In this document: positions 2,399 through 18,667 of the stretch, piece after piece
Layout of the letters: the number at the start of each line of letters is the position of its first letter
Position numbering within the stretch: position 1 is the stretch's first letter
IMG/VR virus record: IMGVR_UViG_3300044712_000064
Coordinates: 1 to 55,173 of that record
DNA length: 55,173 nt
Direction: 5' to 3' (one strand)
DNA from: a virus
Translations under genes and position numbers: made by a program
The notes under the pieces: generated by a model
Told to the model about the DNA's origin: nothing
Database searches by the model: none
What the model saw: the letters and a program-made list of their open reading frames with translations, nothing else

Positions 2399-5300
2399 TT
2401 ATTTATTGAACCTGTCTTTAATCCAAGCCCAATCATAGGATAATTTGAGTTTTTCTAAGTCACCGTTGACTGATTCATAGTAGTCTATAGCATCTTTGGC
2501 ACCCTGCAAACTATTTTGGGCAAATTCGCCCTCAGCTACTGTTAACCAAACATCTAAACGTTTCTTACTCTCAACATCTTTATTATGCTTGAGTTTGATA
2601 CATTCACGGAACGCTGTTCTGTAAGTATCCCATTCGCTACTATTGTACAATCCAACACCCGAATTCATTTCAACAACTTCATGTCTGCTGTCCATAGTAA
2701 AGTCAAGTCCTCTAACAACAGTACTTAATGTAAGTTTCTTATTGTTAGCAACGATAGCTTGGTGACCATACTCTAAACCGTTGACTGGGTTAGTTGCAGT
2801 AAAGATATAATGTCTACGTGACTTGTAGATGTTAGGTTGCCAAGTAAAGTCAAAGTCTTTGTTCACTCTGAGTTTAGCATTGATTAAGAAGTACCAAGGC
2901 GTGTTGCTTGCATTTGCTGCTGCATGTTGACTTGCTACACGACCATCAACCCCTTTAATGTGTACGATTCTGTTAGGTAGACCTAGACTTAGCAAATGAT
3001 CTAAGTTTGCATCCGCACATGCTTCACCGTTACTGATAAAGATGATATCCAGCAAATCATATTTTGCATTGACGTTGTGTTTGACTACGTGGTCATAGTC
3101 AGTAATCTTATCGTACATATAGATTTTACTGACTTTGGGCACAATCGCTTGCTTACCTAACAAATGTACACTGACTTCCTTAGTAGCAAGGATATCATGA
3201 CCCAATGGTTCTTCATTCTTAACAAAGTGTGCATAAGCAGTGTCAAACTTACTGTCCATCAATGCATCAAAGATACTATCCTCGTACTGAATAACAGACA
3301 CCTTCAAGTCTGCTTGTAAGCCTGTTGCATACTTGTTACCCATACTCTGTCCTGACTTGTACATCAATGTAGGCATAATTTCAGGACTATGAAACTTGTT
3401 ACCGAATACATATGTGAAGTTACCTTCAGTCTCGTCAGGATGCCAACTGAAGTCAAACGTATCCATATCCATCTGTTCAAGAATTCTCCAGTTACGAATG
3501 TTAGGTAACTTCTTAACAGTCTGAGTATCCATGTACTTGATTTCAGTACTATTCTCAACAACATACTTAGGACCACCTGTACGTTGCCACTGAGTACCAA
3601 ATTGATATGTCATGGGCGGCTCATGCGGGTTGGGTACCCAACTATAATCAAAACCAGTGTCATCAATATCATCTGGAACAACCCAGTTATCTTTGTTAGG
3701 CAATAATGTTGCAACTGAGTTAGTGATGTATTTGTTCTCTGTTGCACCTTTAACTCTGTACATCATCGTGGGCATAACAGTAGCATCATGCCACTGATTA
3801 CCAAACACATAGTTGTACGGTGGGTCGCTACTATCAGGGTGCCAGCTATAGTCAAAATCAATGTTAGAAACAATTGGTCTAAAGTTTCTGTTGACTTCTG
3901 GTAGTTTAGTTACACGCTGGAAGTCAATGTACTTCACATCATAACTGTTACCAGCAATATATTGAGGACCTCCTGTCTTCTGCCATTGTGTACCGAACTG
4001 ATAGATCATATCAGGACTGTGTGGGTTAGGTACCCAACTATAATCAAATTCACTGTCATCGATGTTAGCAGGAATGATCCAGTTACTTTTGTTAGGCTTC
4101 AATGTAGCAACTACATCATCGACGTACTTAGTAGTTGTTGCACCCTTCATTGTGTACATCAATGTAGGCATAGTCTTGCTGTCATGCCATTGATTGCCAA
4201 ACACATACGTGAATGGAGGATCGAATGGATCAGGACACCAGCTATAGTCAAAGTCAAATTCTCTATCAGTTAACTTTTCAAAGTTACTTTGATCTGGGAG
4301 CAACTTTGCCTTCAGTGTGTCAATGTATTTGTTCTCTGTAGCGCCCTTAACTCTATAAATGACTGTGGGCATTCTCTCAGCACTGTGCCATTGATTACCA
4401 AACACATAGTTATATGCAGGTTCATTATCATCTGGATGCCAGCTATAGTCAAACTCTACGTTCTTTAGTACACGCCATGCTCTGTTGTCAGGATTAGCTA
4501 ATTTAGTCACGCACATAAAGTCAACATACTTGACTTGTGTGCCATTCTTATAATTGAATCTAGGTCCGCCTGTCTTCTGCCATTGTGTACCAAATTGGAA
4601 TATACAGGGTTCTTCGTGTATGCTAGGGTGCCAGCTATAATCAAAGTTACTATCATCAATGTTGAACGGGATTTCCCAATCAGTGCGATCGGGTAATAAT
4701 GTCGCTTTGATATCGTCTACATACTTAACTGATGTAGCACCTTTGACTTTATACATCAACACAGGCAAGTCTATAGCACTGTGATGCTGACTACCAAACA
4801 CATAAATGTATGGAGGATCGTTGGGGTTAGGAACCCATGTAAAGTCAAACTTCACTGCTCTTTTAATTATAACTTCATAGTGTTCAAAGTCTATGCCTAA
4901 CTGAGCTTTTATATCCTGTACATATTTTGTTTCTGTTGCACCTTTGACACGATACATGACCGTAGGCATTATCTCAGGACCATACCATTGATTGCCGAAT
5001 ACATAGTTATAAGGTGGGTCGTTGCTATCCGGATGCCAGCTGTAGTCGAACTCAGCAACTGGCTTCAATAAACGCCATGCTCTGTTAGTCTCACGTGAAT
5101 CTAACTTAGTAGCAGTTTGAATCTCAGTGAATTTAACATCGACACCCTTTGTTGCGATATACTTAGGACCACCGTTCTTTTGCCATTGTGTGCCGAACTC
5201 CCAGATCATAGGTGGTTCATGTGGATGCGGTACCCAACTATAATCAAAATCATCACTGATATCTTCGGGTATTTCCCAACGTTCTTTGACGGGCAATAAC

Positions 5301-5734
5301 TTAGCTGTTACATCATATACGAATTTCTTTTCAGTCGCACCTTTGACTCTGTACTGATATGTTGGCATTGTGTCAACATCATACCATTGATTGCCGAACA
5401 CATAGATATAGGGAGGATCATTCTCGTCAGGGTGCCAGCTATAATCAATCGTACAGTTAGCTAACAATGGACGCCATGCTCTGTTGTTAATGTCAGGTTT
5501 TCTAATAGCTTTCTGACAGTCTTGATATTTGACTTGATTGTTATGTCCGGGCACGATGAAACGTGGGCCACCTGTCTTCTGCCATTGCGTACCGAACTGG
5601 TGTATAAATGGTTTGTCATACGGCTCAGGGCGCCATTCAAAATCAAATTCAGAAACGTCAAGGTTATCAGGAACTTCCCAATAACCTTGCTTCCAATTAT
5701 CAACTCTTTGTTTTACTTCGTCTAATTCAATCAC
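2399..5734 (-). CDS. Twelve-repeat protein with C-terminal glycosyltransferase-like domain, 1111 aa
   Basis: From about residue 30 to 810 the protein consists of 12 repeats of about 66 residues, each built on FDYSWxPxxxxPPYxYxFGxQW. Two versions occur: one continues QKTGGPxY (type A), the other MPTxMYRVKGATExKYV (type B). The order is mostly alternating A-B, with two B-B pairs. The last 300 residues resemble the separate 315-residue protein at 17720-18667 (GVxG, then an AA-rich helix, a WYFLINAK-type strand, NPVNGLEYG, and FRECIK/FREGVK), a family I take to be GT-A-like. The repeats resemble the FDFTWQPN...NGLEYG strand pair inside that domain (around residue 961). Its ATG overlaps the carbamoyltransferase stop by four bases. 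The function is probably glycan binding or transfer, by inference. Confidence 0.6.
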   Translation of the reverse strand: MIELDEVKQRVDNWKQGYWEVPDNLDVSEFDFEWRPEPYDKPFIHQFGTQWQKTGGPRFIVPGHNNQVKYQDCQKAIRKPDINNRAWRPLLANCTIDYSWHPDENDPPYIYVFGNQWYDVDTMPTYQYRVKGATEKKFVYDVTAKLLPVKERWEIPEDISDDFDYSWVPHPHEPPMIWEFGTQWQKNGGPKYIATKGVDVKFTEIQTATKLDSRETNRAWRLLKPVAEFDYSWHPDSNDPPYNYVFGNQWYGPEIMPTVMYRVKGATETKYVQDIKAQLGIDFEHYEVIIKRAVKFDFTWVPNPNDPPYIYVFGSQHHSAIDLPVLMYKVKGATSVKYVDDIKATLLPDRTDWEIPFNIDDSNFDYSWHPSIHEEPCIFQFGTQWQKTGGPRFNYKNGTQVKYVDFMCVTKLANPDNRAWRVLKNVEFDYSWHPDDNEPAYNYVFGNQWHSAERMPTVIYRVKGATENKYIDTLKAKLLPDQSNFEKLTDREFDFDYSWCPDPFDPPFTYVFGNQWHDSKTMPTLMYTMKGATTTKYVDDVVATLKPNKSNWIIPANIDDSEFDYSWVPNPHSPDMIYQFGTQWQKTGGPQYIAGNSYDVKYIDFQRVTKLPEVNRNFRPIVSNIDFDYSWHPDSSDPPYNYVFGNQWHDATVMPTMMYRVKGATENKYITNSVATLLPNKDNWVVPDDIDDTGFDYSWVPNPHEPPMTYQFGTQWQRTGGPKYVVENSTEIKYMDTQTVKKLPNIRNWRILEQMDMDTFDFSWHPDETEGNFTYVFGNKFHSPEIMPTLMYKSGQSMGNKYATGLQADLKVSVIQYEDSIFDALMDSKFDTAYAHFVKNEEPLGHDILATKEVSVHLLGKQAIVPKVSKIYMYDKITDYDHVVKHNVNAKYDLLDIIFISNGEACADANLDHLLSLGLPNRIVHIKGVDGRVASQHAAANASNTPWYFLINAKLRVNKDFDFTWQPNIYKSRRHYIFTATNPVNGLEYGHQAIVANNKKLTLSTVVRGLDFTMDSRHEVVEMNSGVGLYNSSEWDTYRTAFRECIKLKHNKDVESKKRLDVWLTVAEGEFAQNSLQGAKDAIDYYESVNGDLEKLKLSYDWAWIKDRFNK
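3305..5647 (-). repeat. Tandem coding repeats (12 units of about 200 bp, two alternating types)
   Basis: The DNA encoding the repeat array shows the same words every 190-200 bases. On the plus strand these are variants of ccagctatagtcaaa (the FDYSW codons) and ccattgtgtaccaaa or ccattgattaccaaa (the FG[T/N]QW codons). The copies differ at many synonymous and non-synonymous positions, so the array is old or under diversifying change. It is not a recent slip-strand expansion. Confidence 0.85.
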
Positions 5735-7215
5735 GATAATACTTTAACATTGTAGGTTAGTTCGAACCTATCAGCGTCATCACGATTGTTAACCATTGGC
5801 TCGCCGCGTATGTTCAAACTTGTATTCAATAACATAGGGCATCCAGTCTTTTTATACCATTCTTCAAGTAACTTACGTATACCAGACCCGTCTTTACTAA
5901 CAGTCTGCACACGACTTGTGCCATCAGCATGAACTATTGCAGGGAATCGTTCAGGGTTTTTGCACTTAGCTACAACTTGCATGTATCTACTATTGCGCCA
6001 ATTTAATGGCATCATGAAATAGTTATGTACATGTTCTTCTAATATCACAGGTGCAAATGGTCTAAATTTCTGTCTACGCTTAATGTCGTTGACTTTATCT
6101 TTTATATCTTTACCCCTAGGATCAGCTAACAAGCTACGATTACCCAATGCTCTGGGTCCGAACTCTGCACGTCCTGAGGCTACACCTACTATTTTATCAG
6201 AAAGTAGTACATCAATCAAGCCTTGTACTGGGTATTCTCCTGGAATATCAGTGCCCAAACAAGTAGATTCAAACTCTACTTGTTCTTTATAGCCCAATAA
6301 TGCTGCGCCCAGACTACTACCAGCATCGCCTGGGTTAGGCATGATCCAAATGTTATTGAAATATTTCCCAATCAATCTGTTGGCTAGGCAATTTAATGCA
6401 ACACCGCCACCAAACACTAGATTGTTACTCTGTCCTAACTTCTTAGCACGTAACATAATACTGTCAACTAAGTGTTCTAACAATACTTGTCCACTGTGCG
6501 CCAATTGTTCATCTGACGCATCAGGCATGAAGTTTTCAGGGAATCCTATATGGTAGTTATCTTTGAACTTCAATTCACTTATGTTTTCTATTACGTTAGC
6601 TTCTAACTCTTTATAATATGAGTTATCACCATAAGCTGACATACCCATAGTAATGTATTCTTCTTCATTGGGTTTGAGACCAACTCGCTCAGTTAGTGCG
6701 CTATAATACAGTCCTATGCTATTTGGATATTTCTTGCTATACAATTTCTTGTAGATTGCTTGATTGTTGTTATTGTATCTTGCTTCCCAGATTGTTACTG
6801 TGTCGAACTCTCCGATAGCATCGATAACGACGACGGTAGCCTCTGTGAACTTGCTAGTCTGAAAGCCGCTGGCCGCATGGCTTAGATGATGGCTGTGTGT
6901 ATGAAACTTCTTACCTTTCAACAGACTTAACGCACCTTGACTTAGATATTGTTTAGGACTCAATGAAGATAGTTTTGGTTTCTCTCCTGCATACAGTTGA
7001 CGTAGGAACTTTAGCCAAGGCCTTTCATAATAATGAACTTCAAAGTCATCATTACCAACATAAGACAATGCTTCTTTAATGATGTCTACAGGAATCGTAT
7101 GATCTTGCTTTATACCCGTATAACGTTCGCTGTGCGCTGCGAATAGAACTTGGCCATTTCCTACAACTGAAACGGCAGCATCGTGAAATCCTGCACTAAT
7201 TCCAATGTATTTCAT
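5731..7215 (-). CDS. NodU/TobZ-family carbamoyltransferase, 494 aa
   Basis: This enzyme family uses carbamoyl phosphate and ATP to place a carbamoyl group on a hydroxyl, typically of a sugar. The N-terminal Kae1-like domain starts MKYIGISAGFHDAAVSVV and carries the metal-binding HHLSHAASGF near residue 111 and VIDAIGEFDT after it. The C-terminal YrdC-like half has EFGPRALGNRSLLADPRG (about 351-368), FRPFAPVILEE and LLNTSLNIRGEPMV (about 458-472). All expected motifs are present, and the length is slightly below that of NodU-type proteins. It is coupled to the repeat protein downstream by an ATGA overlap. Similar genes occur in other T4-like aquatic phages. The acceptor is unknown; the surrounding sugar genes suggest a glycan. 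Confidence 0.88.
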   Translation of the reverse strand: MKYIGISAGFHDAAVSVVGNGQVLFAAHSERYTGIKQDHTIPVDIIKEALSYVGNDDFEVHYYERPWLKFLRQLYAGEKPKLSSLSPKQYLSQGALSLLKGKKFHTHSHHLSHAASGFQTSKFTEATVVVIDAIGEFDTVTIWEARYNNNNQAIYKKLYSKKYPNSIGLYYSALTERVGLKPNEEEYITMGMSAYGDNSYYKELEANVIENISELKFKDNYHIGFPENFMPDASDEQLAHSGQVLLEHLVDSIMLRAKKLGQSNNLVFGGGVALNCLANRLIGKYFNNIWIMPNPGDAGSSLGAALLGYKEQVEFESTCLGTDIPGEYPVQGLIDVLLSDKIVGVASGRAEFGPRALGNRSLLADPRGKDIKDKVNDIKRRQKFRPFAPVILEEHVHNYFMMPLNWRNSRYMQVVAKCKNPERFPAIVHADGTSRVQTVSKDGSGIRKLLEEWYKKTGCPMLLNTSLNIRGEPMVNNRDDADRFELTYNVKVLS

Positions 7216-7216
7216 A

Positions 7217-7315
7217 TCAGTAAATAAATGGATCTCGTTTCTTCAACTCTTTTAGTCTTTTTCTGTAGTTGTACTCACGCACAATATAATTAAAAATTCG
7301 TTTGAACCACATCAT
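7217..7315 (-). CDS. Small basic aromatic protein, 32 aa
   Basis: The minus strand from ATG 7315 encodes MMWFKRIFNYIVREYNYRKR and then LKELKKRDPFIY. It is strongly basic and rich in Tyr and Phe, suggesting an amphipathic helix that could lie on a membrane or bind nucleic acid. The first ATG overlaps the TGA of the solute-binding protein gene (ATGA), and the stop lies one base before the carbamoyltransferase ATG, so it is a coupled operon member. I recall short proteins of this kind in related phages, with no known role. Confidence 0.55.
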   Translation of the reverse strand: MMWFKRIFNYIVREYNYRKRLKELKKRDPFIY

Positions 7316-8184
7316 TTTACCCTTTCATATAGTTCAGAGACACGTTTAGTCTCTGATTTAAGGAACTCATTTAACCTCAATGATGTATTTACATCTATGC
7401 CCAATGTTGCTAATTCTTTTAATAGTTCTGGGTCTTTCATCTTATTTCTAATATACGAAACTACATCTGTGTCAATTTCTTCACTACCAATCAACGAAAA
7501 CCATCTATTCAATCCAGTGTCATCAATTCCATACTCACGCAATGTTTTGACACTAGAATATTTAGGAATTCTCTTAGTATTAACTATCGCAATGGGCAAG
7601 ACTTTACCTGATTCTATATGTTGTCCTATGCTTGAATAGGTATCCACTGTTAGAAATACATCGTTGTTTAATATAGCGGGTATAACGGGTGTTGCACCCT
7701 TATAAGGCACATGAATGAAATTCCCATATTGGTTCAATACTAAATTCAACAGATGCCCTGAAGTGCCTACTCCCGCTGTAGCAAAAGTATATGTTCCATT
7801 CTTAAACAAATCACGCAAATTTGACACATTATTAACGTGATTTGTGACAATATAAGTAGGTTCGAACCCTACGAAACTTACAGGGACGAACTTATTCAAG
7901 TCATACTTAACACTATTAAACACTGGGGCGATAACCAGATTATTTGAAGCTACTAATATCTGTGAACCCTTGACTGTAGCAAAGTAATTACTTGCAACCA
8001 ATCCACCTGCACCTGTTTTATACATTACTACAAAATTATAGTCCTTGCTTGATAAATGCTTTGCTATAACTCTAGCTACCTTATCCGACGTTCCACCTGG
8101 GTCGTATGGTACAACCATTGGTATTTCAACTTGTGCAAAGGCTTTAAGTGCTAGTAAACACAATGCTAATAATAGTTTTTTCAT
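7312..8184 (-). CDS. Bug/TctC-family periplasmic solute-binding protein, 290 aa
   Basis: The protein has a clear signal peptide (MKKLLLALCLLALKAFA, likely cleaved after Ala17), then the hallmark first loop VVPYDPGGTSDKVARVIA (PYDPGG at 26-31), GAGGLVASNYFA, and the second loop GVGTSGHLLN...HVPYKGATPVIPAIL. Length is slightly under the usual 310-325. These features identify the tripartite-tricarboxylate-transporter receptor family, whose members bind carboxylates, amides or similar small molecules in the periplasm. No TctA/TctB membrane subunits are seen in the window, so it would have to serve a host transporter or act alone as a binder or sensor. It is embedded in the operon with ATGA overlaps on both sides, which argues against assembly error. 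Confidence 0.88.
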   Translation of the reverse strand: MKKLLLALCLLALKAFAQVEIPMVVPYDPGGTSDKVARVIAKHLSSKDYNFVVMYKTGAGGLVASNYFATVKGSQILVASNNLVIAPVFNSVKYDLNKFVPVSFVGFEPTYIVTNHVNNVSNLRDLFKNGTYTFATAGVGTSGHLLNLVLNQYGNFIHVPYKGATPVIPAILNNDVFLTVDTYSSIGQHIESGKVLPIAIVNTKRIPKYSSVKTLREYGIDDTGLNRWFSLIGSEEIDTDVVSYIRNKMKDPELLKELATLGIDVNTSLRLNEFLKSETKRVSELYERVK

Positions 8185-9320
8185 AGTTTATAGAATCTAG
8201 TGTTTATCGCTGTCAATTCACAGTCAATGTCATTGGGGTTGCAATATTTTGATTCGATTTTCTGATAAAGAAAATTACGAATTGTATATAAGAAGTTATC
8301 TTGTGTTTTTACATCTGCTGTCTGCCAGAACCAATCATCCATTGCTCTGAATAGTTTAAGTTCAGGTTTGTCTGCTTGAAACTTAGGTTGCTCTACCCCT
8401 GGGTAAATAATTGGATGCATTACTGATCTATAAGCACCTATGGGTAATTTCAACGACTTTTTCCAAAGCTGCTTTTTATTTACATCTACTTCACATGCGG
8501 CTTTAATCATCTGCGCTTGCTTAATTACGATTTCAGGTATATCAGGAGTCCAATAAAAGAACTCAGTATCCACTTCATATTCTTTAATATTGTCCGGAAT
8601 CACTGGATTAATATGAGAAGCGGAAGCATCAGAAAAGTAAGCATAATAATCAACACCGTCAAATAACACTAGTGGCTTATCAACTCCATAAAGCTGACAG
8701 ACTTTCTTGCCCTTGTCGAATAATTCAATAATGTTTTTGTCAGATACGTGAGTAGATTGTCTACCGATTTGTCCTAATGTCAGATATGCATTTGTGGGTG
8801 TTGTCTCAAACCAATCATCTTTCTTTAATAGGTCTAAGACGGGCTTGGAAAAATCTACATATCTAATTTTAGTATTAGGATGTAGTTTGTGTTGTAACTC
8901 TTTTAGTCTGGGTGTAGCAACAAAATCAATTTCCCCGTAGACATTTCTACTTGAAGTATCATTGTCTTTAAAATTTTTACGGTCTAATTCGGGTATTTCC
9001 ATAACAATTTCATCAATTCGAATATTGTTATTGACAAACGTACTTAGGACATTGTGGCTATCGGCGCCGCCACTGTAATAAAGGATTATATAATCGTATT
9101 TCTCACGTATTTGCTTTGCCCTGCGCAAATACAAACTCTCGATAGTTTCTTGAACAGGTTCAGACCAATTGTAAGTCTCATAAACACTGTCATTGAAAAT
9201 CCAACGGACCTCAAAACTAAACTGTTTAGCATACATTAAGGCTAATGTCTTATTGTAGAACTTCTTCCATCCAACAAGATAATAGCCTAACCTATCGTAA
9301 TTATTTGCGAGTGTTACCAT
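8181..9320 (-). CDS. PP-loop ATP pyrophosphatase-like protein, 379 aa
   Basis: The P-loop-like motif YYSGGADSHN (SGGADS at residues 83-88) marks an N-type ATP pyrophosphatase, the fold of asparagine synthetase, NAD synthetase, QueC and tRNA-thiolating enzymes. Such enzymes adenylate a substrate and then transfer nitrogen or sulfur. The N-terminal 80 residues and the C-terminal 200 match no subfamily I recognise, and there is no N-terminal glutaminase Cys or CxxC pair as in sugar amidotransferases. I chose ATG 9320 (MVTLANNYDRLGYY); a start at 9374 would overlap the dehydrogenase by 74 bases. It is coupled by ATGA to the solute-binding protein gene. A role in amidating or activating a sugar acid is a guess from context. 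Confidence 0.65.
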   Translation of the reverse strand: MVTLANNYDRLGYYLVGWKKFYNKTLALMYAKQFSFEVRWIFNDSVYETYNWSEPVQETIESLYLRRAKQIREKYDYIILYYSGGADSHNVLSTFVNNNIRIDEIVMEIPELDRKNFKDNDTSSRNVYGEIDFVATPRLKELQHKLHPNTKIRYVDFSKPVLDLLKKDDWFETTPTNAYLTLGQIGRQSTHVSDKNIIELFDKGKKVCQLYGVDKPLVLFDGVDYYAYFSDASASHINPVIPDNIKEYEVDTEFFYWTPDIPEIVIKQAQMIKAACEVDVNKKQLWKKSLKLPIGAYRSVMHPIIYPGVEQPKFQADKPELKLFRAMDDWFWQTADVKTQDNFLYTIRNFLYQKIESKYCNPNDIDCELTAINTRFYKL

Positions 9321-10521
9321 AATGGATAACTTTGATATCTTTGTCGGTCGTGAATCGACGCCAAGGATCAACAACTACACTACCGTTATCAATAACAAAA
9401 TACAATTTTTGACTCTTTTCTACATCAGCATAGTCATATGTAATTTCCGCACAATGCGCTAGTAAAATAACTGCTTTTACGGGACCGTGAACATGATCGC
9501 CTGTTAATGGATCAGCATAAACTACATGCTTACCCATTTCTTCGCAATAATGCCCAACTAATGTTGAGTAGCTACCGTCAATGTAAGGAACGTTTGGTTT
9601 ATATGCTTTACCATGAATCACAATAGGTAGATTTGCTTGATTAGCTTCGTCAACTAAGCATTTAGCAAGATTCTTCGCTTGGATTTCTCTGGCATGCATG
9701 ATTGAATCGAATAGGTCATACCCTAAATCTAAGTTCTCTGCCATATAACGTAATGCAATATTATCACGTGGATGACATGCTCCTGCATCTCCCATACCTG
9801 CTGTCATGTATTTAGGCCCCATGATACGCATACTGGACTTAGCTAATGCGTCTGTTACTACGTCTACGTTGATATTACCTTGCTTTATAGCAACGTCCTG
9901 AATCATATTGACTAATCCAATCTTGGCACTGATAAACGTATTGTAGAATACTTTGATGCATTCACATTCGTCCCAAGTTCCTACAATGTAGCGAGGATCG
10001 TTTTCCATGATTGTCTTATAGAAATCTACAAGCAACTTGGCATCTCCTGTTTCGCTTCCATCTTCGGTGCCGATCATTACCATTTCTGGATTAACCATAT
10101 CCCATTTAACACTGCCCATAGCAATTAAATAAGGATTGTAAGCAAAGCGTGTATTACTTAATAACGGAACGAACTCTCGGCGTGTAGTACCTGGCAATAC
10201 AGTACTGATAAGAACCAATAATTGATCCTTGTTCATATGTTTATTAGCTTCTGTCAACACCTCTTTAACAATGTCATACTTAAAGTCAACAGGCGTTAAA
10301 TGTGCTGATGGTACGCTGCCGTCATATTCTTTGTGATGTGGAGTAGGAACCGCAACAAATACGATATCTTTGTCTTTAACTGCCAGTTCAATCGTGTCAA
10401 CTACTTTGACTGACTTAGATGATCTGGGATAGACATCATAACCCTCAACAATGTGTTTTGTGGCCATAACCTCAGCGCAATCTAGACCCAATTTACCTAA
10501 ACCAATAAATCCAATTTTCAT
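9301..10521 (-). CDS. UDP-glucose/UDP-ManNAc-type nucleotide-sugar 6-dehydrogenase, 406 aa
   Basis: It starts MKIGFIGLGKLGLDCAEVMA, a Rossmann GxGxxG motif at residues 7-12. The central dimer helix (CIKVFYNTFISAKIGLVNMI) is followed by GDAGACHPRDNIALRY near residue 244, holding the expected catalytic Cys. The C-terminal domain carries KAYKPNVPYIDGSYSTLV and VVYADPLTG. The family oxidises C6 of a nucleotide sugar twice with NAD+ to give the uronic acid. The exact sugar cannot be read. The ATG at 10521 was preferred to a GTG nine bases upstream. Its end overlaps the PP-loop gene start by 20 bases. Confidence 0.82.
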   Translation of the reverse strand: MKIGFIGLGKLGLDCAEVMATKHIVEGYDVYPRSSKSVKVVDTIELAVKDKDIVFVAVPTPHHKEYDGSVPSAHLTPVDFKYDIVKEVLTEANKHMNKDQLLVLISTVLPGTTRREFVPLLSNTRFAYNPYLIAMGSVKWDMVNPEMVMIGTEDGSETGDAKLLVDFYKTIMENDPRYIVGTWDECECIKVFYNTFISAKIGLVNMIQDVAIKQGNINVDVVTDALAKSSMRIMGPKYMTAGMGDAGACHPRDNIALRYMAENLDLGYDLFDSIMHAREIQAKNLAKCLVDEANQANLPIVIHGKAYKPNVPYIDGSYSTLVGHYCEEMGKHVVYADPLTGDHVHGPVKAVILLAHCAEITYDYADVEKSQKLYFVIDNGSVVVDPWRRFTTDKDIKVIHYGNTRK

Positions 10522-10526
10522 ATAAT

Positions 10527-11660
10527 TCACTTTCTAGATGTATATATTTGTTTTCCGATGTCCATTAAACTTTCTATGAGGTCACTGCGCCTCATAAGTT
10601 CACGTAGAGTTTTTAAATTGTGCTCTAGAATTTCTTCCATTTCTTTGCGGATCTTAATACGCTGGTCGTTAGACATATTAGAAAATCGGTTAATTTCACG
10701 GACGATGATATCGCATCTGTCATTTAATGAGATATCACTATCATAACTTTCATCTATCCACCTATCAAATGTTTTGAATCCTAGTTCTTTTAATACTGTT
10801 AGTGTACCCGGGTTACCTAAAACAATGAACGGCATACCCACTAGCACCGACTTAAATGTCTTTTCACTTAAAAAAATTGTATCCGTGTCAAAATGTGTCT
10901 CAGTGACTAGAAACAAAAAGGAATCATTGCACTGCTTTAATGGTATTTGCCTAGTTGGATTACTTTGCAATACATCGGGAACATCAAGGATATCAAATTT
11001 TGTATTGTGTATTTCAGGGTAGTTTTCTGTATAGTCAATATACTGGTGGTTTCTACCGTTAGCCCAAGAAATATATCCAAAATCTCTGAGATTGTTATTA
11101 ATCAGTTTGCTAGTCAACATCACACGATGTTCCCTAGCCATTCTATTAAGGCTTATATAAACTCTATGATTTTCATTTAGGTTAGCCCTAGAAACACTAT
11201 CATCTCTCAAGTGATGTATCCAATGGTTAGTTACGTAGAACTTGAAATTGTTTTCTGTCTTAGTGAGTTTATTATTTCCGTTAACAAAGTATAAAGGACA
11301 AATATCTTTTATCCTATCTGCTATTTCCCTAACAGTTAATGTAGTTTCGCTGAAGCCTTCTAACGGATCAAGAACGACTGGTATTAAATTTCTGTTAGCA
11401 AAGACATGTTTGTTCTCTATGATATAGTCACTAAATGCAAGTCCTTGTTCATGGAAATTGTGATTTTTTATAAACAGTGGAAAATATCTTGGAATGTCGC
11501 TAGTAGGTGAATTGTCTATGGTTACAAATCTGAAAAAATAAAATTTATCATGCTGGTCGGTGATTGAATATCTGATTTTATCCCAAACCATTCGTTTGAT
11601 ATTGACTGTTGCCCAATCATTATACTGAAATTCTTCAGTAATCTTAAATTTTAATAACAT
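10527..11660 (-). CDS. Phage glycosyltransferase-like protein, exostosin/fucosyltransferase-type C-terminus, 377 aa
   Basis: The C-terminal third carries FLSEKTFKSVLVGMPFIVLG (around residue 262) and LKELGFKTFDRWIDESYD, then a charged helix bundle. The same block occurs in the 399-residue protein at 13681-14880 as FLTEKTYKPIFYKQPFILIS and LRNMGYRTFSSIIDESYD, so the two are distant paralogues. The S/TEKT[FY]K and PFI[LV] pattern resembles the nucleotide-sugar-binding end of GT-B enzymes such as exostosin or fucosyltransferase families. The donor and acceptor are unknown. A GAAGGAT ribosome-binding site precedes ATG 11660, which lies 17 bases inside the SGNH gene. Confidence 0.55.
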   Translation of the reverse strand: MLLKFKITEEFQYNDWATVNIKRMVWDKIRYSITDQHDKFYFFRFVTIDNSPTSDIPRYFPLFIKNHNFHEQGLAFSDYIIENKHVFANRNLIPVVLDPLEGFSETTLTVREIADRIKDICPLYFVNGNNKLTKTENNFKFYVTNHWIHHLRDDSVSRANLNENHRVYISLNRMAREHRVMLTSKLINNNLRDFGYISWANGRNHQYIDYTENYPEIHNTKFDILDVPDVLQSNPTRQIPLKQCNDSFLFLVTETHFDTDTIFLSEKTFKSVLVGMPFIVLGNPGTLTVLKELGFKTFDRWIDESYDSDISLNDRCDIIVREINRFSNMSNDQRIKIRKEMEEILEHNLKTLRELMRRSDLIESLMDIGKQIYTSRK

Positions 11661-12405
11661 CTAATATCCTTCTAGCAAACTCTTTATGGCTTTCTATTCC
11701 AGGATGCATATTATCTCTAGCTTTATCAGTCCCTTTAATATTACCCAAATCGTTAGTATCTTTGAGCCATTCAAATGTTCGTAGTTGGGAATCAGGTAAT
11801 CCTGCCCAACACTTCCAATAAAACTGTATATTATGTTCTTTACAATATTGAACTAATGGATACATACTCCAAGCTATTTGCAAATATCTTGACCATTCGT
11901 GTTTTTGAGAAATTGCTACCCACATTTTTCTTTCTAGTGGGGTAGGTAATATATCACTTTCCCAGTTAGGATTAACAGTTTGATATCCCGATTCAGTAGC
12001 AAAAAACTTTCTTTCTGTATCGCTCATGTAATATAAAAAGACTTTGGGCTTATATTTTTGTAGTGCCCAATATGCATTTGCAATTTGTATGTCAGGGCCT
12101 GTGCCAGGCAATGCGACATTCACACATTCTAATCCTAATTCTTTACTTACAATCTCGCAGTAAATATCACCCTGACTTATACCTTGTCCAAACGTAATAC
12201 TACAACCACTTGCTAGTAACACATTATCTGATTTTGGTTCAGTATATCGTAACCCATATTGATTGAGTTCATAGTCAAAATGATCGAACCCTTCAACATA
12301 TTCTTCTCTTTCAGTACTCAAAAGACAAGACTGGTTTGGGGCAAATATACTGACTGGTAATGTCTTGATATTATCCCTAGCGTTTTGTAGGAAAGAATGT
12401 GTCAT
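11644..12405 (-). CDS. SGNH/GDSL-type hydrolase, 253 aa
   Basis: Block I SGCSITFGQG (around residue 64) supplies the nucleophile Ser, the GTGPD segment (about 100) fits the Gly block, and DNMHPG near residue 232 gives the Asp-x-x-His pair. Together these are the SGNH esterase set, though the Asn block is not obvious. No signal peptide is seen, so it would act in the cytoplasm or on the virion. Members remove acetyl or acyl groups from sugars, or act as acyltransferases. In this cassette a glycan ester is a reasonable substrate. The start overlaps the upstream radical SAM gene stop by ATGA. Confidence 0.72.
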   Translation of the reverse strand: MTHSFLQNARDNIKTLPVSIFAPNQSCLLSTEREEYVEGFDHFDYELNQYGLRYTEPKSDNVLLASGCSITFGQGISQGDIYCEIVSKELGLECVNVALPGTGPDIQIANAYWALQKYKPKVFLYYMSDTERKFFATESGYQTVNPNWESDILPTPLERKMWVAISQKHEWSRYLQIAWSMYPLVQYCKEHNIQFYWKCWAGLPDSQLRTFEWLKDTNDLGNIKGTDKARDNMHPGIESHKEFARRILDVIKI

Positions 12406-13715
12406 TTAAATAGTTCTTCCAAGAAAGGGAATGTCTTAACAACATCTTCATTTCTGATATTGTCTAATTTCTTAGTGATTTCCACAAACTCTTGAATATG
12501 TTCGGATTTGTCCTCACCATTCATACTATCAATAATATTGCGCAAGAACACGGTATTCATATTGTATTTCTGTTCTAATTCATCAGCATAACGATTAATC
12601 TTATCTGCAACCTTATCTTTCATGTGTTGCGGCAAGATATTAGCGTTATAGTAATGAGGGAACATCAGATAGTTTAAATGAAATACACTAGTCCAATGTT
12701 CTTCGACGGGTTCAAACCAATTAGGATCGTTGTCAGGACGCTTTTGTAATGTCCAACTATCTACCATACCTAAGTTAATACATTCACGATGAAACTCAGG
12801 TAGATAATAGATATTGAATATGCTGATAGTGGGGTGAATTCCCCAGACAATATTACCGTTCTTAAATAGGCCTTGGTCACGCAATTGCTTAAAGTTATCT
12901 ACAACCTGTTTCCAATCACCGCCACGACGGATATAGTTATAACGGTCGCCCATATCATCTAAGCTAGCGATTAACTGAATGTTCTTAAAATGCTTCCAAT
13001 AATCGATAGCATAATGGTCTTTGTAGCGCAATTCACCGAAGTTTGTGCTATATCTAATCGTTACGTCAGTTTTACCCGCATCAATCAGTTTCTGTAATAT
13101 CTTATAATGTTCGTCGGTGATTAATGGCTCGCCACCTGCAAAGTGAATATATTCTACCTTGTCAAATAAAGTAGTGAAGTCTTGTTCAAACTTGTCAACT
13201 GTAGCCCAGATTTTCTTATATTTAGGGGGCATATTTTGTTTTTCAACATCATACAGTTTCTGGTGATCGCTATGCCATTGCGTACTAAATTCAATTCCGC
13301 AAGTTCTGCAACTCTGATTACAGATATTACTAAATCTAAAATCCCAGTGAACTAGATTTAATTCATCGACTGTGCCATCTGGTTTTGTGCTATCTACAAC
13401 ATCAATATGGTTCTTACCATATGTCATATTCATATGTTGACGCAAACTACCATAACCTTGTTCTTCTTTATCATAACAACGATGGCAGAATTCACTACAA
13501 TCTTCTCCGTTAAGCATTTTCGTTCTAACGGATTTCATAGTATCGCTATTCCATACTTCGTTAATAGTCTGTGTATTCATGTTTCCAATCACTTTGTCGA
13601 TTGGACTCATACAACATAGATTAACGTCCTTATTGGGCATAAAATGCATGTGCGTCCAGGGAGCCATGCAGAATTTCTTATCACCCAATACTTTGCTGAT
13701 TAACTTCTTTTCCAT
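12402..13715 (-). CDS. Radical SAM protein with N-terminal SPASM/twitch-like cluster, 437 aa
   Basis: The radical SAM cluster motif CNQSCRTC (C-x3-C-x2-C) lies near residue 132, followed by YIHFAGGEPLI, the SAM-binding GGEP strand. Ahead of it, KFCMAPWTHMHFMPNKDV, NLCCMSP and EFCHRCYDKEEQG supply further Cys residues that could bind an auxiliary Fe-S cluster. The layout matches twitch-domain radical SAM proteins found in several aquatic phages, whose substrates are not known. The start at 13715 overlaps the upstream gene by 35 bases but is needed to keep the conserved FCMAPW segment complete. It is one of three radical SAM genes in 5.3 kb. Confidence 0.82.
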   Translation of the reverse strand: MEKKLISKVLGDKKFCMAPWTHMHFMPNKDVNLCCMSPIDKVIGNMNTQTINEVWNSDTMKSVRTKMLNGEDCSEFCHRCYDKEEQGYGSLRQHMNMTYGKNHIDVVDSTKPDGTVDELNLVHWDFRFSNICNQSCRTCGIEFSTQWHSDHQKLYDVEKQNMPPKYKKIWATVDKFEQDFTTLFDKVEYIHFAGGEPLITDEHYKILQKLIDAGKTDVTIRYSTNFGELRYKDHYAIDYWKHFKNIQLIASLDDMGDRYNYIRRGGDWKQVVDNFKQLRDQGLFKNGNIVWGIHPTISIFNIYYLPEFHRECINLGMVDSWTLQKRPDNDPNWFEPVEEHWTSVFHLNYLMFPHYYNANILPQHMKDKVADKINRYADELEQKYNMNTVFLRNIIDSMNGEDKSEHIQEFVEITKKLDNIRNEDVVKTFPFLEELFK

Positions 13716-14880
13716 TGAATAGTATTTCTTTAATGTGTTTCAGTAAGACTTGTTCACTTGGTCTGGACATAAACACACGATAATTGTGTTCTACAATATC
13801 CTGTATTTCAGTCCTGATTTCTTCAAGCTGACTTAATGACATGCTATTTATTTTGGTAATCTCTTTACAGATAGATTCCATTCTTTTCTTGGGATCCATT
13901 ATTAAATCATAGCTCTCGTCAATGATGCTGGAGAACGTTCTATAGCCCATATTTCTTAAATACAATAAACTCAATGGTTCAGATATTAAAATGAACGGTT
14001 GTTTGTAAAAAATAGGTTTATACGTTTTTTCAGTTAAGAATATTGTAGGGTTATTCTTTTCTATACCCTCATACATAGTGGTTTCACAAACGATTTGCAT
14101 GAAACTGTCTGAGACTTTTTCTGTCATATCCCATTGTTTTAGATGTACTGGACGTATATCTTCGTTATCTAGCATGACTTTAGTTTCTAATAACTCAATG
14201 TCATGTGATGATAGTTCTCTATATAATGGATCCGTGTCATTGACTGAATTGATAGCACTATAGATATTCTCGGTAGTCCAACTGTAATAACTGTTATTCA
14301 ATATTCCGTTGTCCTTTGCCCATAGATAAAAGAATAATCTAAAGGGTTTTGCTTGACGTATAGGAATCAAAAACTTCTTATTCAGTGGCTTTTGTTCATA
14401 GTTCGTTAAACTACTATTTCGTATATAATCACCATAATGCATTTCAAATAATGGATTAGGAATATACTCTACGTTGTCACCCAATACTAGTTTAATGTGA
14501 TTAGCTTTAGCATTCGCATTACCATAACTAAAGAAAATATTAGCTTTTTTATAGTGACTGGTTAATTTAACAACCAACAATCTAACCTGTTCATCAATAA
14601 ACGTTTCCATTGGATATGACACGACAATATTCAACTTTTCAGAATCAGGAACTCGGTTGAAAAGTTCATTAGTTGAATTAATCTCAGCTAACCTAAATGG
14701 TTGCGCTACAGCTAAAAACAAATAGGTGTCGTTTACATACTCAGGGGCATTAACTATTCTATGCTCAAAATGATTTCTGACAAAATCAGCTAGATTCAGT
14801 GTATAACCGAACTTTAAATTATTTTGCGGATAAAAGACACCGTCGGGTAATAAGGTGTCAGTATAGATAATGTCAATCAT
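13681..14880 (-). CDS. Phage glycosyltransferase-like protein, paralogue of 10527-11660, 399 aa
   Basis: This 399-residue protein shares the C-terminal block TEKTYKPIFYKQPFIL...LRNMGYRTFSSIIDESYD (around residue 280 onwards) with the 377-residue protein. Its N-terminus differs, opening MIDIIYTDTLLPDGVFYPQN. A central stretch, NIFFSYGNANAKANHIKLVL, looks like a Rossmann-like strand-turn-helix. The family is probably a GT-B-type glycosyltransferase, although no invariant catalytic residue can be named. It sits between two radical SAM genes and overlaps both (35 bases downstream, 8 bases upstream), so its product is likely made in step with theirs. Confidence 0.5.
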   Translation of the reverse strand: MIDIIYTDTLLPDGVFYPQNNLKFGYTLNLADFVRNHFEHRIVNAPEYVNDTYLFLAVAQPFRLAEINSTNELFNRVPDSEKLNIVVSYPMETFIDEQVRLLVVKLTSHYKKANIFFSYGNANAKANHIKLVLGDNVEYIPNPLFEMHYGDYIRNSSLTNYEQKPLNKKFLIPIRQAKPFRLFFYLWAKDNGILNNSYYSWTTENIYSAINSVNDTDPLYRELSSHDIELLETKVMLDNEDIRPVHLKQWDMTEKVSDSFMQIVCETTMYEGIEKNNPTIFLTEKTYKPIFYKQPFILISEPLSLLYLRNMGYRTFSSIIDESYDLIMDPKKRMESICKEITKINSMSLSQLEEIRTEIQDIVEHNYRVFMSRPSEQVLLKHIKEILFNGKEVNQQSIG

Positions 14881-16372
14881 ACTTCGCGGTTGGATCGTCT
14901 ATATTTGAATTATCAGGGTTTAATACCCAGCCTTCTTTTTTAGCTAAATCTTGTAACTGGTCATCACTATCCCATTGTCTGCTACTGTCACCATTAACTA
15001 ATGTAATAGGCTGATACTCTGTATCTGGGATAGTTTCTACCCAGTCTGTTAATATGCTAGGGAATACGTTTAAACTCTTATTTCTACGCTTGTCATATTC
15101 ACGATAGAATGTCTTAAAGTCACGCCATAATGTGATTTTGTTACTGGTTCTACGATGTGGAGCGTCAACTGTTTCTAAGTAATCAATCAGTCTTTCAATG
15201 CTTGCTTTTTCAAACTCATGCCACAATTCATTATTTTTATTGACCTCATACCATTTTTGTAATTTTACACGTAAATGATCTTTAATATGATCGGGTAATG
15301 CTAATGGGCTTTGAAAGCTAGGGAAACGTAATAGATTAACTGACACAGTGGGTTTTACTTTGAAACTCTGTTTCATACGTAACACTGTATCTAGGAAGTG
15401 AGTAATAGAAAATAACGATAAACTGTTAATAGTCATCATAATATGTAGACCTTTAAGGTTGGCTTCAGCCGCTACTTTAGTTATATTCTTTACCCAAACA
15501 TTATAATCTAATCCATCACGGATATATTCAGCGTGTGCGCCTGTGGCTTCGCAGCTTGTATATAATTCAAAGTGTTTGATATTCTTAGACTTCTCGATTA
15601 GTTTGTCAATAATATCGTCCTTAGCAATTAAATTACTGTTAATCGCAAAACGCATATTACTGTCTTGTAATCCGAACCAATCAAATAATTTCCATGTGTT
15701 ACTTGACATTAATGGTTCGCCACCAGTAATTCGTAGTTCTTCTAAACTATCTGCTAGTCCATTATGCCACCATTCCCAGAATGCTTTGATATAGGGATTG
15801 TCTTCGTCATTCTTGTAGGGTTGCGCCCATGAGCCGTCTTGTTGGAATGCTGCTGCCCCATCACTGACTAAGTTCTGGTAGGGTCCGTTCTTTTTAATAT
15901 CGTTAGCCCATGTCGTACTAAAGCTAGCATTACAATAACTGCAAGCTAGATTACACACACGGTCGAAACTAATCTCAAACGTCTTTAGATTAACATCGTG
16001 ATCCCAGGGCTTTTTAGCAACATCGTTTAATGCTTCGTCACTGTAAATGATTGTTTTGAACACACGGTCACTGACTGTATCTTTACCAATGTCTTCGACT
16101 TTCCAGCAATATTCACACTCACGTGGACGCTCACCCTCAAGCATCAATTTACGCATCAATTTCTTGTGCTTGGTATTGTGAATTGCACTTGGGCTAATGC
16201 GTATTTCTTCGATAGGAATACGATGTGCTGGTGGGTGATGACAACTAGCAGTAGTGCCACTACCTAGCCATGTTGTAGCATTATACCATTTAGCCCCGCA
16301 GAAGCTAGGGCTGATACTGTCTACAACTCTGTCACGGTATTCTGTTAATGATTCGTCAGGCTTTTTTGGCAT
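14873..16372 (-). CDS. Radical SAM protein, twitch/SPASM-like N-terminus, 499 aa
   Basis: It carries CNLACSYC (C-x3-C-x2-C) around residue 137 and ELRITGGEPLM further on. The N-terminal region has FCGAKWYNATTW, ASCHHPPAHRIPIEEIR and CEYCWKVEDIGKD, a Cys/His-rich block that could bind an extra Fe-S cluster. The same block occurs in the next gene upstream, so the two are clear paralogues. ATG 16372 (MPKKPDESLTEYRDR) was chosen because the longer frame to 16444 is an overlap with the upstream gene and adds no conserved sequence. The overlap with the neighbour is 17 bases. The substrate is unknown. Confidence 0.8.
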   Translation of the reverse strand: MPKKPDESLTEYRDRVVDSISPSFCGAKWYNATTWLGSGTTASCHHPPAHRIPIEEIRISPSAIHNTKHKKLMRKLMLEGERPRECEYCWKVEDIGKDTVSDRVFKTIIYSDEALNDVAKKPWDHDVNLKTFEISFDRVCNLACSYCNASFSTTWANDIKKNGPYQNLVSDGAAAFQQDGSWAQPYKNDEDNPYIKAFWEWWHNGLADSLEELRITGGEPLMSSNTWKLFDWFGLQDSNMRFAINSNLIAKDDIIDKLIEKSKNIKHFELYTSCEATGAHAEYIRDGLDYNVWVKNITKVAAEANLKGLHIMMTINSLSLFSITHFLDTVLRMKQSFKVKPTVSVNLLRFPSFQSPLALPDHIKDHLRVKLQKWYEVNKNNELWHEFEKASIERLIDYLETVDAPHRRTSNKITLWRDFKTFYREYDKRRNKSLNVFPSILTDWVETIPDTEYQPITLVNGDSSRQWDSDDQLQDLAKKEGWVLNPDNSNIDDPTAKYD

Positions 16373-17720
16373 TATTGTAAAAATCCTTAAATTCGGGGAA
16401 AACAGAAACAAAATCTGTATTCCTACGCTTGTCAATTTCATCAATAAACTTAATGAAATCTGTAGGGTCTTGCTGCTCTGTTATTAGATAGTCACAGAAG
16501 CGTTGGAGTTGATCCCATTCTTCTAAGTACAGTCTAGCAATACCGTCTGTATTATACTTAATCCAATGTTCGCCCGTAGTTAAAATATGGTCTCGATATG
16601 TTTTGCGCAATTCTAATGGCAACACGTTTACACTCAGATGTGTGGGCCAGCGTAGATAGTTGATACTGATAGGAATACGGTTATGCGCGGGGGTCTTATT
16701 GTATTGTTGTCTCAGTGCCATGATGTAGTTAATGAACTCACTCATAGTTGACAGACTTAGTGCATTGATTGTAGTCATTACATTGACCGTAACATCTGTT
16801 GCAGTCAAAATCTTGTTTATATTATTGACCCATTGAGTATAGTTCAACCCATATCTACTGTATTCTGCTTGCTTACCTGTACTTTCTAGGCTAGTGTAAA
16901 CATCAACACGTTTCACATAGTTTTTGAGTTCCATCAACGTAACAATGAACTTAGTAATCAATTTATCTTCTACGCATAAGTTTGTGTTGATTGCTAATTC
17001 TAAGTTGGGATTAGGATTGTTCTTAATGTATTCAAACAGTTTCCATACGTCTTTGCTCAGTAATGGTTCACCACCTGTAACTCTGAGTACACGCAGGTTC
17101 TTGTAAATGTCGGGCAGATATTTCCAGAATGCATCTACATATGGGTTATCATCACTGTTCTTGTATGGGAATCTACCCACTTGTTTGAGCCAAGTTAAGT
17201 CGTGATTGCTTGTACTTGTAGGATAAGGTCCATGACGTTCAATCTCTTCCATCCACTTACTAGAGACTTCAGGGCTACAGTATGTGCATTTGAAATTACA
17301 CACGTTGCTGAAACTGACTTCTAAGTAGCTAGGGTGAATATCGCTTGCTGGATCAGTCTTAGCGCATTCTTCTAGTCTATCCCATGCCCAATAGTCGCTT
17401 GTCTTATAGTGACGGTCACTGAAATAATCTTTACCTAAATCTTCAATCTTCCAGCAGTAATCACATTCGCTAGGGCGCTCACCATTGAGCATCTTTAGTC
17501 GTTGCTCTTTCTTAAACTTGCTATTGTGTAGTGCTGCAGGATTCTCACGTATTTCTTCGATTGGAATCTTATGTGGACTGGGATGGTGACAGCTATGATT
17601 GTATCCATTCTGTAGATACAATGTAGTCTGTAACCATTTAGCACTACAAAAGCTAGGGCTGATATTGTTAATTACAATACGCTTTTGATTCAATATCTCA
17701 ATACGTTCTTCGTTTGTCAT
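16356..17720 (-). CDS. Radical SAM protein, paralogue of 14873-16372, 454 aa
   Basis: CNFKCTYC at about residue 139 and VLRVTGGEPLL define the radical SAM core. The N-terminus repeats the paralogue's pattern: FCSAKWLQTTLYLQNGYN, SCHHPSPHKIPIEEIR, ERPSECDYCWKIEDLGKD. The strong match of this N-terminal block between two otherwise diverged enzymes suggests that it recognises a shared partner or substrate. ATG 17720 is preferred to the GTG three bases before it, and it shares one base with the upstream stop (TGATG). No SPASM-type seven-Cys C-terminus is present. Confidence 0.8.
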   Translation of the reverse strand: MTNEERIEILNQKRIVINNISPSFCSAKWLQTTLYLQNGYNHSCHHPSPHKIPIEEIRENPAALHNSKFKKEQRLKMLNGERPSECDYCWKIEDLGKDYFSDRHYKTSDYWAWDRLEECAKTDPASDIHPSYLEVSFSNVCNFKCTYCSPEVSSKWMEEIERHGPYPTSTSNHDLTWLKQVGRFPYKNSDDNPYVDAFWKYLPDIYKNLRVLRVTGGEPLLSKDVWKLFEYIKNNPNPNLELAINTNLCVEDKLITKFIVTLMELKNYVKRVDVYTSLESTGKQAEYSRYGLNYTQWVNNINKILTATDVTVNVMTTINALSLSTMSEFINYIMALRQQYNKTPAHNRIPISINYLRWPTHLSVNVLPLELRKTYRDHILTTGEHWIKYNTDGIARLYLEEWDQLQRFCDYLITEQQDPTDFIKFIDEIDKRRNTDFVSVFPEFKDFYNNAKKA

Positions 17721-18667
17721 CACCAGCCTTCAATCTTTCTGATAACATCAATCTCTCTGACTAATGGACCTAAGTTGTGCTTGTCACTGTTATAGTGTCG
17801 CTTAAAGAATGCTGACTGTTCTGCCGACAAGATGCACATGGGTAACCCTAGTTTATCTTTGAGGACGTTACCCAACGTTTCAGCTTCTTTTATTGGATTA
17901 CGATTTTCGCTTTCTTCCCACAGTTCAAGGAAGTTATCGAACCACTGAACTTTCTTAGCGTCCCATGATGTTAGCATTGTCAGGTATGTGCCAAGTCGTG
18001 CTCCATAGATAGCCCAATCACCGTTCTGAACATCTGCACCCACGTTGTGCCAGATCGTCAAATTATTCATATTACGACCGCTAACACTGCGTTTAAAGTC
18101 ATCAATATCGGGAACTCTGCCACCAACTAGACACATCTTAACGCCTTCCCGAAAACCCGCACGCCAAGCCTGAAACGGTGTATAGTTAGGATAAGTAGTA
18201 GAGTAGCAATCATACATTGACCAATATAAACTGTTTTGATAATCTAAACAAAAATCAACTGTGTGAGTATCGTTACCGTCACTGGCTTCGTGAGTTTTCA
18301 TGTTCATTACATACTCTTTTGTCCAGCAACTCATGCCACCATTGCCATATCGCAATCCATTGATATGATTGACTGCTCTCCAGCGATACTGTGCTTTGTG
18401 GTGTGATTCGTCTTTGTCTGTGAAGTCTAGTTCTAAGTTAAAGAATTCCATATTGGGCAAGTTGTCACCGTCAATCAATATGAAACGCTCAGTGAAACTT
18501 TCCTCTGCAGCGGCTTTGTGTGCTGCATCACTGCCCTTAACGCCATCGACTCTACGTGCCCATGGCACCATGTTCTTAATCTTGAGCCAGAATTCTTCTT
18601 TCTGTGGCTCGTCGTAGCTCAAGTAAATGCAATCTAAATCAGCGATATCAATTATATTTGAACTCAT
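17720..18667 (-). CDS. GT-A-like glycosyltransferase-family phage protein, 315 aa
   Basis: It begins MSSNIIDIADLDCIYLSYDE and contains PWARRVDGVKGSDAAHKAAA, then RFILIDGDN, a DGD-type motif at about residue 65 that could bind a metal and nucleotide sugar. Then follow YRWRAVNHINGLRYGNGG and WRAGFREGVKM. The same order of motifs is found in the C-terminal 300 residues of the 1111-residue repeat protein, so they are homologous. The family is widespread in phages without an assigned reaction. The DGD motif and strand order suggest GT-A. It is coupled on both sides. Confidence 0.6.
   Translation of the reverse strand: MSSNIIDIADLDCIYLSYDEPQKEEFWLKIKNMVPWARRVDGVKGSDAAHKAAAEESFTERFILIDGDNLPNMEFFNLELDFTDKDESHHKAQYRWRAVNHINGLRYGNGGMSCWTKEYVMNMKTHEASDGNDTHTVDFCLDYQNSLYWSMYDCYSTTYPNYTPFQAWRAGFREGVKMCLVGGRVPDIDDFKRSVSGRNMNNLTIWHNVGADVQNGDWAIYGARLGTYLTMLTSWDAKKVQWFDNFLELWEESENRNPIKEAETLGNVLKDKLGLPMCILSAEQSAFFKRHYNSDKHNLGPLVREIDVIRKIEGW

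Follow-up and report, generated by a model that had tools for sequence, protein, structure and literature searches.

A predicted periplasmic TctC-family protein and a PP-loop enzyme encoded as a recurrent gene pair in uncultivated viruses

The TctC gene and its operon

The window (the whole stretch of DNA that was analysed, 55,173 nucleotides) is an entire 55-kb viral record. It is a fragment of a T4-superfamily myovirus: the right end carries a late sigma factor gene together with SbcC/SbcD-like genes, and baseplate wedge and hub genes are also present. A single minus-strand ORF of 5555 amino acids (23854-40521), downstream of the baseplate genes in gene order, takes up about 30% of the contig, and an HNH/homing endonuclease is encoded on the plus strand at the left end (1669-2250; phrog_655, 9.4e-17). 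The operon that holds the TctC gene (Table 1) also includes a UDP-sugar dehydrogenase, a Nol-like carbamoyltransferase, three twitch radical SAM proteins (12402-13715, 14873-16444 and 16356-17723) and several glycosyltransferase-like proteins of unknown family. One of the latter, the product of 10527-11660, has no Pfam match, and its self-match to the product of 13681-14880 has a value of 2.6e-24. No TctA, TctB or DctM gene was found in the window, and the absence of the first two had already been pointed out in an earlier note on this DNA.

Table 1. Features of the TctC operon in the window
Feature	Position	Strand	Evidence
1111-aa protein with repeated FDYSWHPDP..PPYIYVFGNQW units	2399..5734	-	relatives at the same position in syntenic loci
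NodU/Nol-like carbamoyltransferase, downstream neighbour	5731..7215	-	PF16861 (1.1e-51), PF02543; phrog_1601 (3.4e-100)
32-codon microORF, (M)MWFKRIFNYIVREYNYRKRLKELKKRDPFIY	7217..7315	-	ATGA overlap with TctC stop
TctC/Bug-family solute-binding protein	7312..8184	-	Pfam, BugD match, AlphaFold2 model, Foldseek, conserved columns
PP-loop (SGGADS) N-type ATP pyrophosphatase-like enzyme, 379 aa	8181..9320	-	motif, AlphaFold2, Foldseek
UDP-glucose/nucleotide-sugar dehydrogenase, upstream neighbour	9301..10530	-	PF03721, PF00984; phrog_9148 (1.1e-95)
Unknown-family protein, glycosyltransferase-like by eye	10527..11660	-	paralogue of 13681-14880
Block with three paralogous twitch-domain radical SAM proteins, one operon	12402..17723	-	NF033640 over cut-off, 3 of 3

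The TctC gene is an intact ORF for 290 amino acids. Its product matches PF03401 at 1.5e-22, scoring 80.9 bits where the cut-off is 27, over profile positions 1-270 of 274, and among solved structures it matches BugD (2f5x, 1.8e-22), Bug27 (2qpq, 6.3e-21) and a terephthalate-binding protein (about 1e-19). With phage homologues as input, AlphaFold2 gave a model with a pLDDT of 94.1 and the two-domain Bug fold, and a Foldseek search with it gave TM values of 0.85 to BugD 2f5x and 0.82 to Bug27, with terephthalate- and adipate-binding relatives also being matched. The membership of the Bug/TctC family that the earlier note had proposed is therefore confirmed by profile, solved structure and model, and the comparison with Bug proteins which it had recommended shows agreement of the fold. 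It had also described a signal peptide and two loops, all of which were found. A heuristic call from the sequence gives a Sec signal peptide, MKKLLLALCLLALKAFA followed by Q, the beta1-alpha1 loop reads PYDPGGTSD (residues 26-34, with P26, G30, G31 and D34), and HVPYKG is present at residues 158-163. The signature of the TTT family is PFxAGGxxD, and in solved members this loop holds the proximal carboxylate via two waters (PMC5812351). In the window protein the P, G, G and D of the signature are kept and the F and A are replaced by Y and P respectively. The carboxylate pincer is intact, and G30, G31, D34, R38, H144 and G163 are all retained.

ATGA overlaps with genes on both sides had been reported. 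The upstream one is with the PP-loop gene (TctC start ATG 8184-8182, PP-loop stop TGA 8183-8181); the downstream one also exists (TctC stop TGA 7314-7312, ATG 7315-7313), but its partner is a 32-codon microORF and not the carbamoyltransferase, which starts at 7215. The microORF sits between these two genes, ends in REYNYRKRLKELKKRDPFIY and is conserved in three syntenic loci (L066, L057 and L068); it has no family match and no significant match in named phages. The best bacterial TctC matches to the window protein reach only about 31-33% identity. Judged from its sequence, the window protein is a true TctC-family protein, predicted to be exported, and a true operon member borne by a phage.

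The constant partner of TctC, on which the earlier note was silent, is the PP-loop ATP pyrophosphatase gene directly upstream, whose ORF stays open to 9374 (TTG start). Its product has no sequence match in Pfam, NCBIfam, PHROG or PDB and falls in no named family among these. The SGGxDS pyrophosphate-binding loop is present, with Y75, D76, S83, G84, G85 and D87 invariant across the family alignment and SGGxD[S/T] found in 124 of 128 family members. The AlphaFold2 model (pLDDT 93.1) matched carbapenam synthetase (9e-5), LarE (5e-4) and NAD synthetase (2e-3) in Foldseek, these fold matches being weak (TM about 0.3) and confined to the nucleotide-binding domain, and the QueC profile was matched at 0.005 in 4 of 20 PP-loop proteins. 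Carbapenam synthetase, LarE and NAD synthetase spend ATP on activating a carboxyl group. Judged by motif and modelled fold, the product of 8181-9320 is an N-type PP-loop ATP pyrophosphatase of a kind not described before, with a weak likeness to these three enzymes.

Recurrence of the gene pair among viruses

A scan of 2.9 million viral contigs with the TctC alignment gave 34 loci, of which 19 have a clear relative of the window PP-loop gene nearby, often in arrays where the two genes alternate (PP-T-PP-T). Some TctC loci show few signs of belonging to a phage (L025, L034, L042 and L046 among them); these may be bacterial and were given no weight. A reverse scan seeded by PP-loop proteins alone yielded at least 544 relatives. 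In the best 80 of these at least 544 loci, TctC was present within 6 kb in 48 and DctP in 34 (8 with DctP only, 26 with both), while 24 had neither within 6 kb; when near copies among the same best 80 were removed, 33 of 51 PP loci had TctC and/or DctP. On counting PP-TctC neighbours within 300 bp we obtained 70 pairs, 69 of them on the same strand, and the commonest gap was -4 (the ATGA overlap) in both gene orders. Across 26 whole viral records there are 40 TctC matches, and for 27 of them a PP gene is no more than 500 bp away, as against a mean of 1.0 (never above 6 in 2000 trials) on random placement in the same records. Because these 26 records were picked mostly for a TctC already seen near a PP gene, the two seeded scans give the fairer estimate. 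The adjacency recurs beyond chance and the pairing is well shown. The distances of the PP-loop and TctC proteins also correlate (r 0.58, 0 of 5000 permutations), of which shared ancestry may be an alternative cause. The heuristic found a signal peptide in 92 of 97 TctC proteins and in none of the 128 PP-loop or 40 DctP proteins, and a T4 portal or terminase gene is present in many of these records. What the sequences show is a pair made of a predicted secreted TctC and a predicted cytosolic PP-loop protein, encoded adjacently and usually with overlap in numerous viruses that are uncultivated and to a good part T4-like. Among phage TctCs, G31 is retained in 30 of 66 and D34 in 32 of 66; with about half lacking these residues, not all of the proteins need the usual mode of carboxylate binding.

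The second partner of the PP-loop gene is a DctP protein of 315-320 amino acids (PF03480, down to 9e-52), TctC and DctP being two unrelated carboxylate-binding families of tripartite transporters. An Arg is present at the putative TRAP ligand-Arg position in 33 of the 40 DctP proteins. Since none of the 40 has a signal peptide, at least the DctP partner is not a periplasmic receptor. Such signal-less proteins adjoin PP-loop genes in many viral loci (L076:7246-8202, L099:7561-8508, L119:7115-8083 and others). Permease genes were found inside the PP-loop/DctP/TctC cluster of two phages. In L072, a 317-kb record, the order is PP, TctA (7188-8486), TctC-like, DctP and a sugar/MFS permease, and in L118 it is PP, DctP, TctA (8301-9638) and TctC-like; both TctC-like genes are below the Pfam cut-off and were matched only by the profile built here. 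TctA occurs in 1 of 26 whole viral records, and TctB and DctM in none of 27 viral records.

Beyond the uncultivated viruses, a tblastn search with two PP-loop proteins gave no match in 50,697 named phage records, and bacteria and archaea (one genome each of 84,980 species) gave PP-loop relatives on only 4 contigs; both counts are lower bounds, as the pattern step of the scan misses diverged relatives. Three of the contigs are from Bacteriovoracaceae and lack TctC, and the fourth is a 3-kb Methylococcaceae contig of phage-derived appearance with PP and DctP. The genomes of all four had no TctC. In the Bacteriovoracaceae MAGs (L128, L129 and L130) the PP-loop relative, without TctC, occupies a conserved chromosomal place near a protein resembling the window product of 17720-18667. 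Single-sequence pattern scans with the window TctC gave no match. The TctC and DctP hits in named phages were rejected as phage examples, being short unannotated faecal scaffolds, phage-labelled fragments or bacterial scaffolds. PADLOC profiles matched none of the PP-loop, TctC or DctP proteins, and a defence role by family is rejected. The earlier note knew of no characterised phage TctC, and we found none in the open literature searched, where only passing mentions occur, namely SUP05 viral contigs with a hit to the tctA domain (PMC4164917) and a norB/nirK viral scaffold bearing genes for tricarboxylate transport (PMC8115048).

Phylogeny and the syntenic slot

The TctC tree was built from 65 phage and 40 bacterial sequences, the latter taken from plasmids and from 274 sampled genomes of the class to which the L127 Methylococcaceae genome belongs. 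Of the phage sequences, 59, that of the window among them, occupy one side of the tree to the exclusion of all bacterial sequences (SH-aLRT 85), in a tree with long deep branches and a small sample; a few others of the phage set look like separate captures or bacterial contigs. The phage-only group makes an old phage lineage likely, as far as the sequences tell. A betaproteobacterial host had been hinted at from the expansion of the family in that class, but the phage TctCs form a separate group with bacterial matches of only about 31-33%, and neither a betaproteobacterial origin nor such a host is implied.

The loci L066, L057/L058/L059 and L068, all from other metagenomes, have the order PP-loop, TctC-like, microORF, carbamoyltransferase and a protein of about 1,100 amino acids, headed by the UDP-sugar dehydrogenase where the locus covers that region. 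A chimeric join, which the earlier note had named as a danger, is unlikely because these independent metagenomes keep the same order and overlaps. On its suggestion that the same gene be looked for at the same place in relatives, we find that the slot is conserved but that the TctC in it is not orthologous. The window TctC has 23-25% identity with the proteins in this slot, against 64-69% for the carbamoyltransferase and 77-80% for the dehydrogenase, with the PP-loop protein intermediate (41-49%); across the syntenic loci TctC is the fastest-changing gene (23-41% against 64-80%). The slot proteins of L066 and L057 are under the Pfam TctC cut-off and were recognised by the profile built here. 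In related phages a different TctC, with no PP-loop gene nearby, lies between SbcD-like and SbcC-like genes (L037:7977-8921 and L040:2911-3855) or just before them (L045:1-810).

Possible function and relation to known systems

The explanation that we consider best, and by a modest measure probable, is that of a recurrent phage module which captures, imports and activates with ATP a small carboxylate, perhaps for the neighbouring glycan genes. We infer the transport, the ligand and the reaction as follows. In the host periplasm, the conserved two-loop pincer of the exported TctC would bind a small carboxylate, and the loaded protein would dock on the host TctAB permease (on a phage TctA in a few phages), bringing the acid to the cytosol. 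There the PP-loop enzyme would adenylate the carboxylate with ATP, release PPi and join the acid to an amine, ammonia or sulfur; enzymes of the asparagine synthetase type, NAD synthetase and LarE use the same adenylate-and-join chemistry. More speculatively, the product might feed the nearby sugar genes (UDP-sugar dehydrogenase, carbamoyltransferase, putative glycosyltransferases and radical SAM) and end up, for example, as a substituent of virion or host-envelope glycans, a link that is drawn from gene neighbourhood alone. The TctA genes inside the L072 and L118 arrays are the best evidence for transport rather than mere binding, and owing to them we favour nutrient redirection or precursor scavenging among the roles listed in the earlier note. 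Against capture and activation stands the observation that most of these phages show no permease, as do the signal-less DctP partners, the loss of G31 and D34 in about half of the phage TctCs, the weakness of the PP-loop fold matches and the 24 of 80 PP loci with neither binding protein. That TctC changes rapidly and occurs in paralogous arrays would suit shifts in substrate, and would also fit conflict with the host.

A wider form of the proposal, which we put forward only tentatively, is that uncultivated T4-like phages share an undescribed system in which a fast-diversifying periplasmic TctC supplies a dedicated PP-loop ligase with one specific organic acid. Many loci would add a cytosolic DctP and, rarely, TctA, and phages would swap or multiply the pairs, changing which acid is attached to a product, for instance a glycan of the surface.

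Three other explanations were weighed. TctC and DctP could act outside transport, either by binding or regulating the PP-loop enzyme or by serving as decoys, sensors or superinfection factors, and to this we give an unlikely place. The signal-less DctP proteins beside PP genes (0 of 40), the rarity of permease genes and the fast change of TctC, which conflict would predict, are in its favour, but TctC and the PP-loop protein are expected on opposite sides of the membrane, TctA lies within the module of two phages, PADLOC gave no match and the ligand Arg is kept in most DctP proteins. It also seems rather improbable that TctC is a plain auxiliary uptake gene like cyanophage PstS, boosting carbon or nitrogen uptake of the host via host TctAB, with the PP-loop gene unrelated in purpose. 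The signal peptide, the intact pincer and the lack of TctAB in the window suit such a role, orphan TctCs relying on a distant TctAB are usual in bacteria (PMC5812351), and phage PstS is a precedent (PMC3429862, PMC10976474). Yet the 70 adjacent pairs, the alternating arrays, the reciprocal enrichment and the correlated distances argue for a joint job with the PP-loop enzyme, and the TctC members differ even among syntenic phages. Lastly, a host TctC recently picked up by chance or chimerically joined, which the great abundance of TctC in betaproteobacteria (PMC5812351) might suggest, has a negligible probability and is ruled out by the syntenic loci and the tree, as the position and overlaps recur in independent metagenomes, the tree group is phage-only, the GC of the gene (0.35-0.36) equals that of its flanking genes and no relative above about 33% identity was found.

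The window TctC is a true and probably old gene of a phage and makes up half of a module that recurs and has apparently not been described before. In viruses that the named-phage collection lacks, a single phage enzyme family without a name is repeatedly tied to two carboxylate-binding families unrelated to each other. If the capture-and-activation proposal is true, phages control which organic acids are taken up and activated with ATP, and a route would open to new phage chemistry, to the ligands that orphan Bug-type proteins bind and to a new family of enzymes.

To our knowledge, phage-encoded binding proteins are known mainly for phosphate. Cyanophage PstS resembles the phage TctC in that it is a periplasmic binding protein encoded by a phage and presumably supplies an importer of the host, but it serves phosphate and an ABC transporter and is not paired with a dedicated metabolising enzyme. 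With BugD, Bug27, AdpC and TphC/TBP of the tripartite tricarboxylate transporters, the window TctC shares the fold (TM 0.82-0.85), size, signal peptide and a PFxxGGxxD-type pincer loop, and like them it stands as an orphan gene with no TctAB nearby. Unlike the bacterial Bug/TctC proteins sampled, it is phage-borne, belongs to a separate tree group, shares an operon with a PP-loop enzyme and has at best about 31-33% identity with them. The DctP (TRAP) proteins form the second carboxylate-binding family adjoining the same PP-loop gene, with the ligand Arg mostly kept; they differ from known TRAP DctP in lacking signal peptides, and the window has none. The PP-loop protein has SGGxDS and a nucleotide-binding domain in common with the N-type enzymes carbapenam synthetase, LarE, NAD synthetase and QueC, and differs from them in its extra N- and C-terminal parts and in having no significant sequence match to a family. 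The parts of the module are of known kinds, and their combination is apparently undescribed and new relative to the open literature searched.
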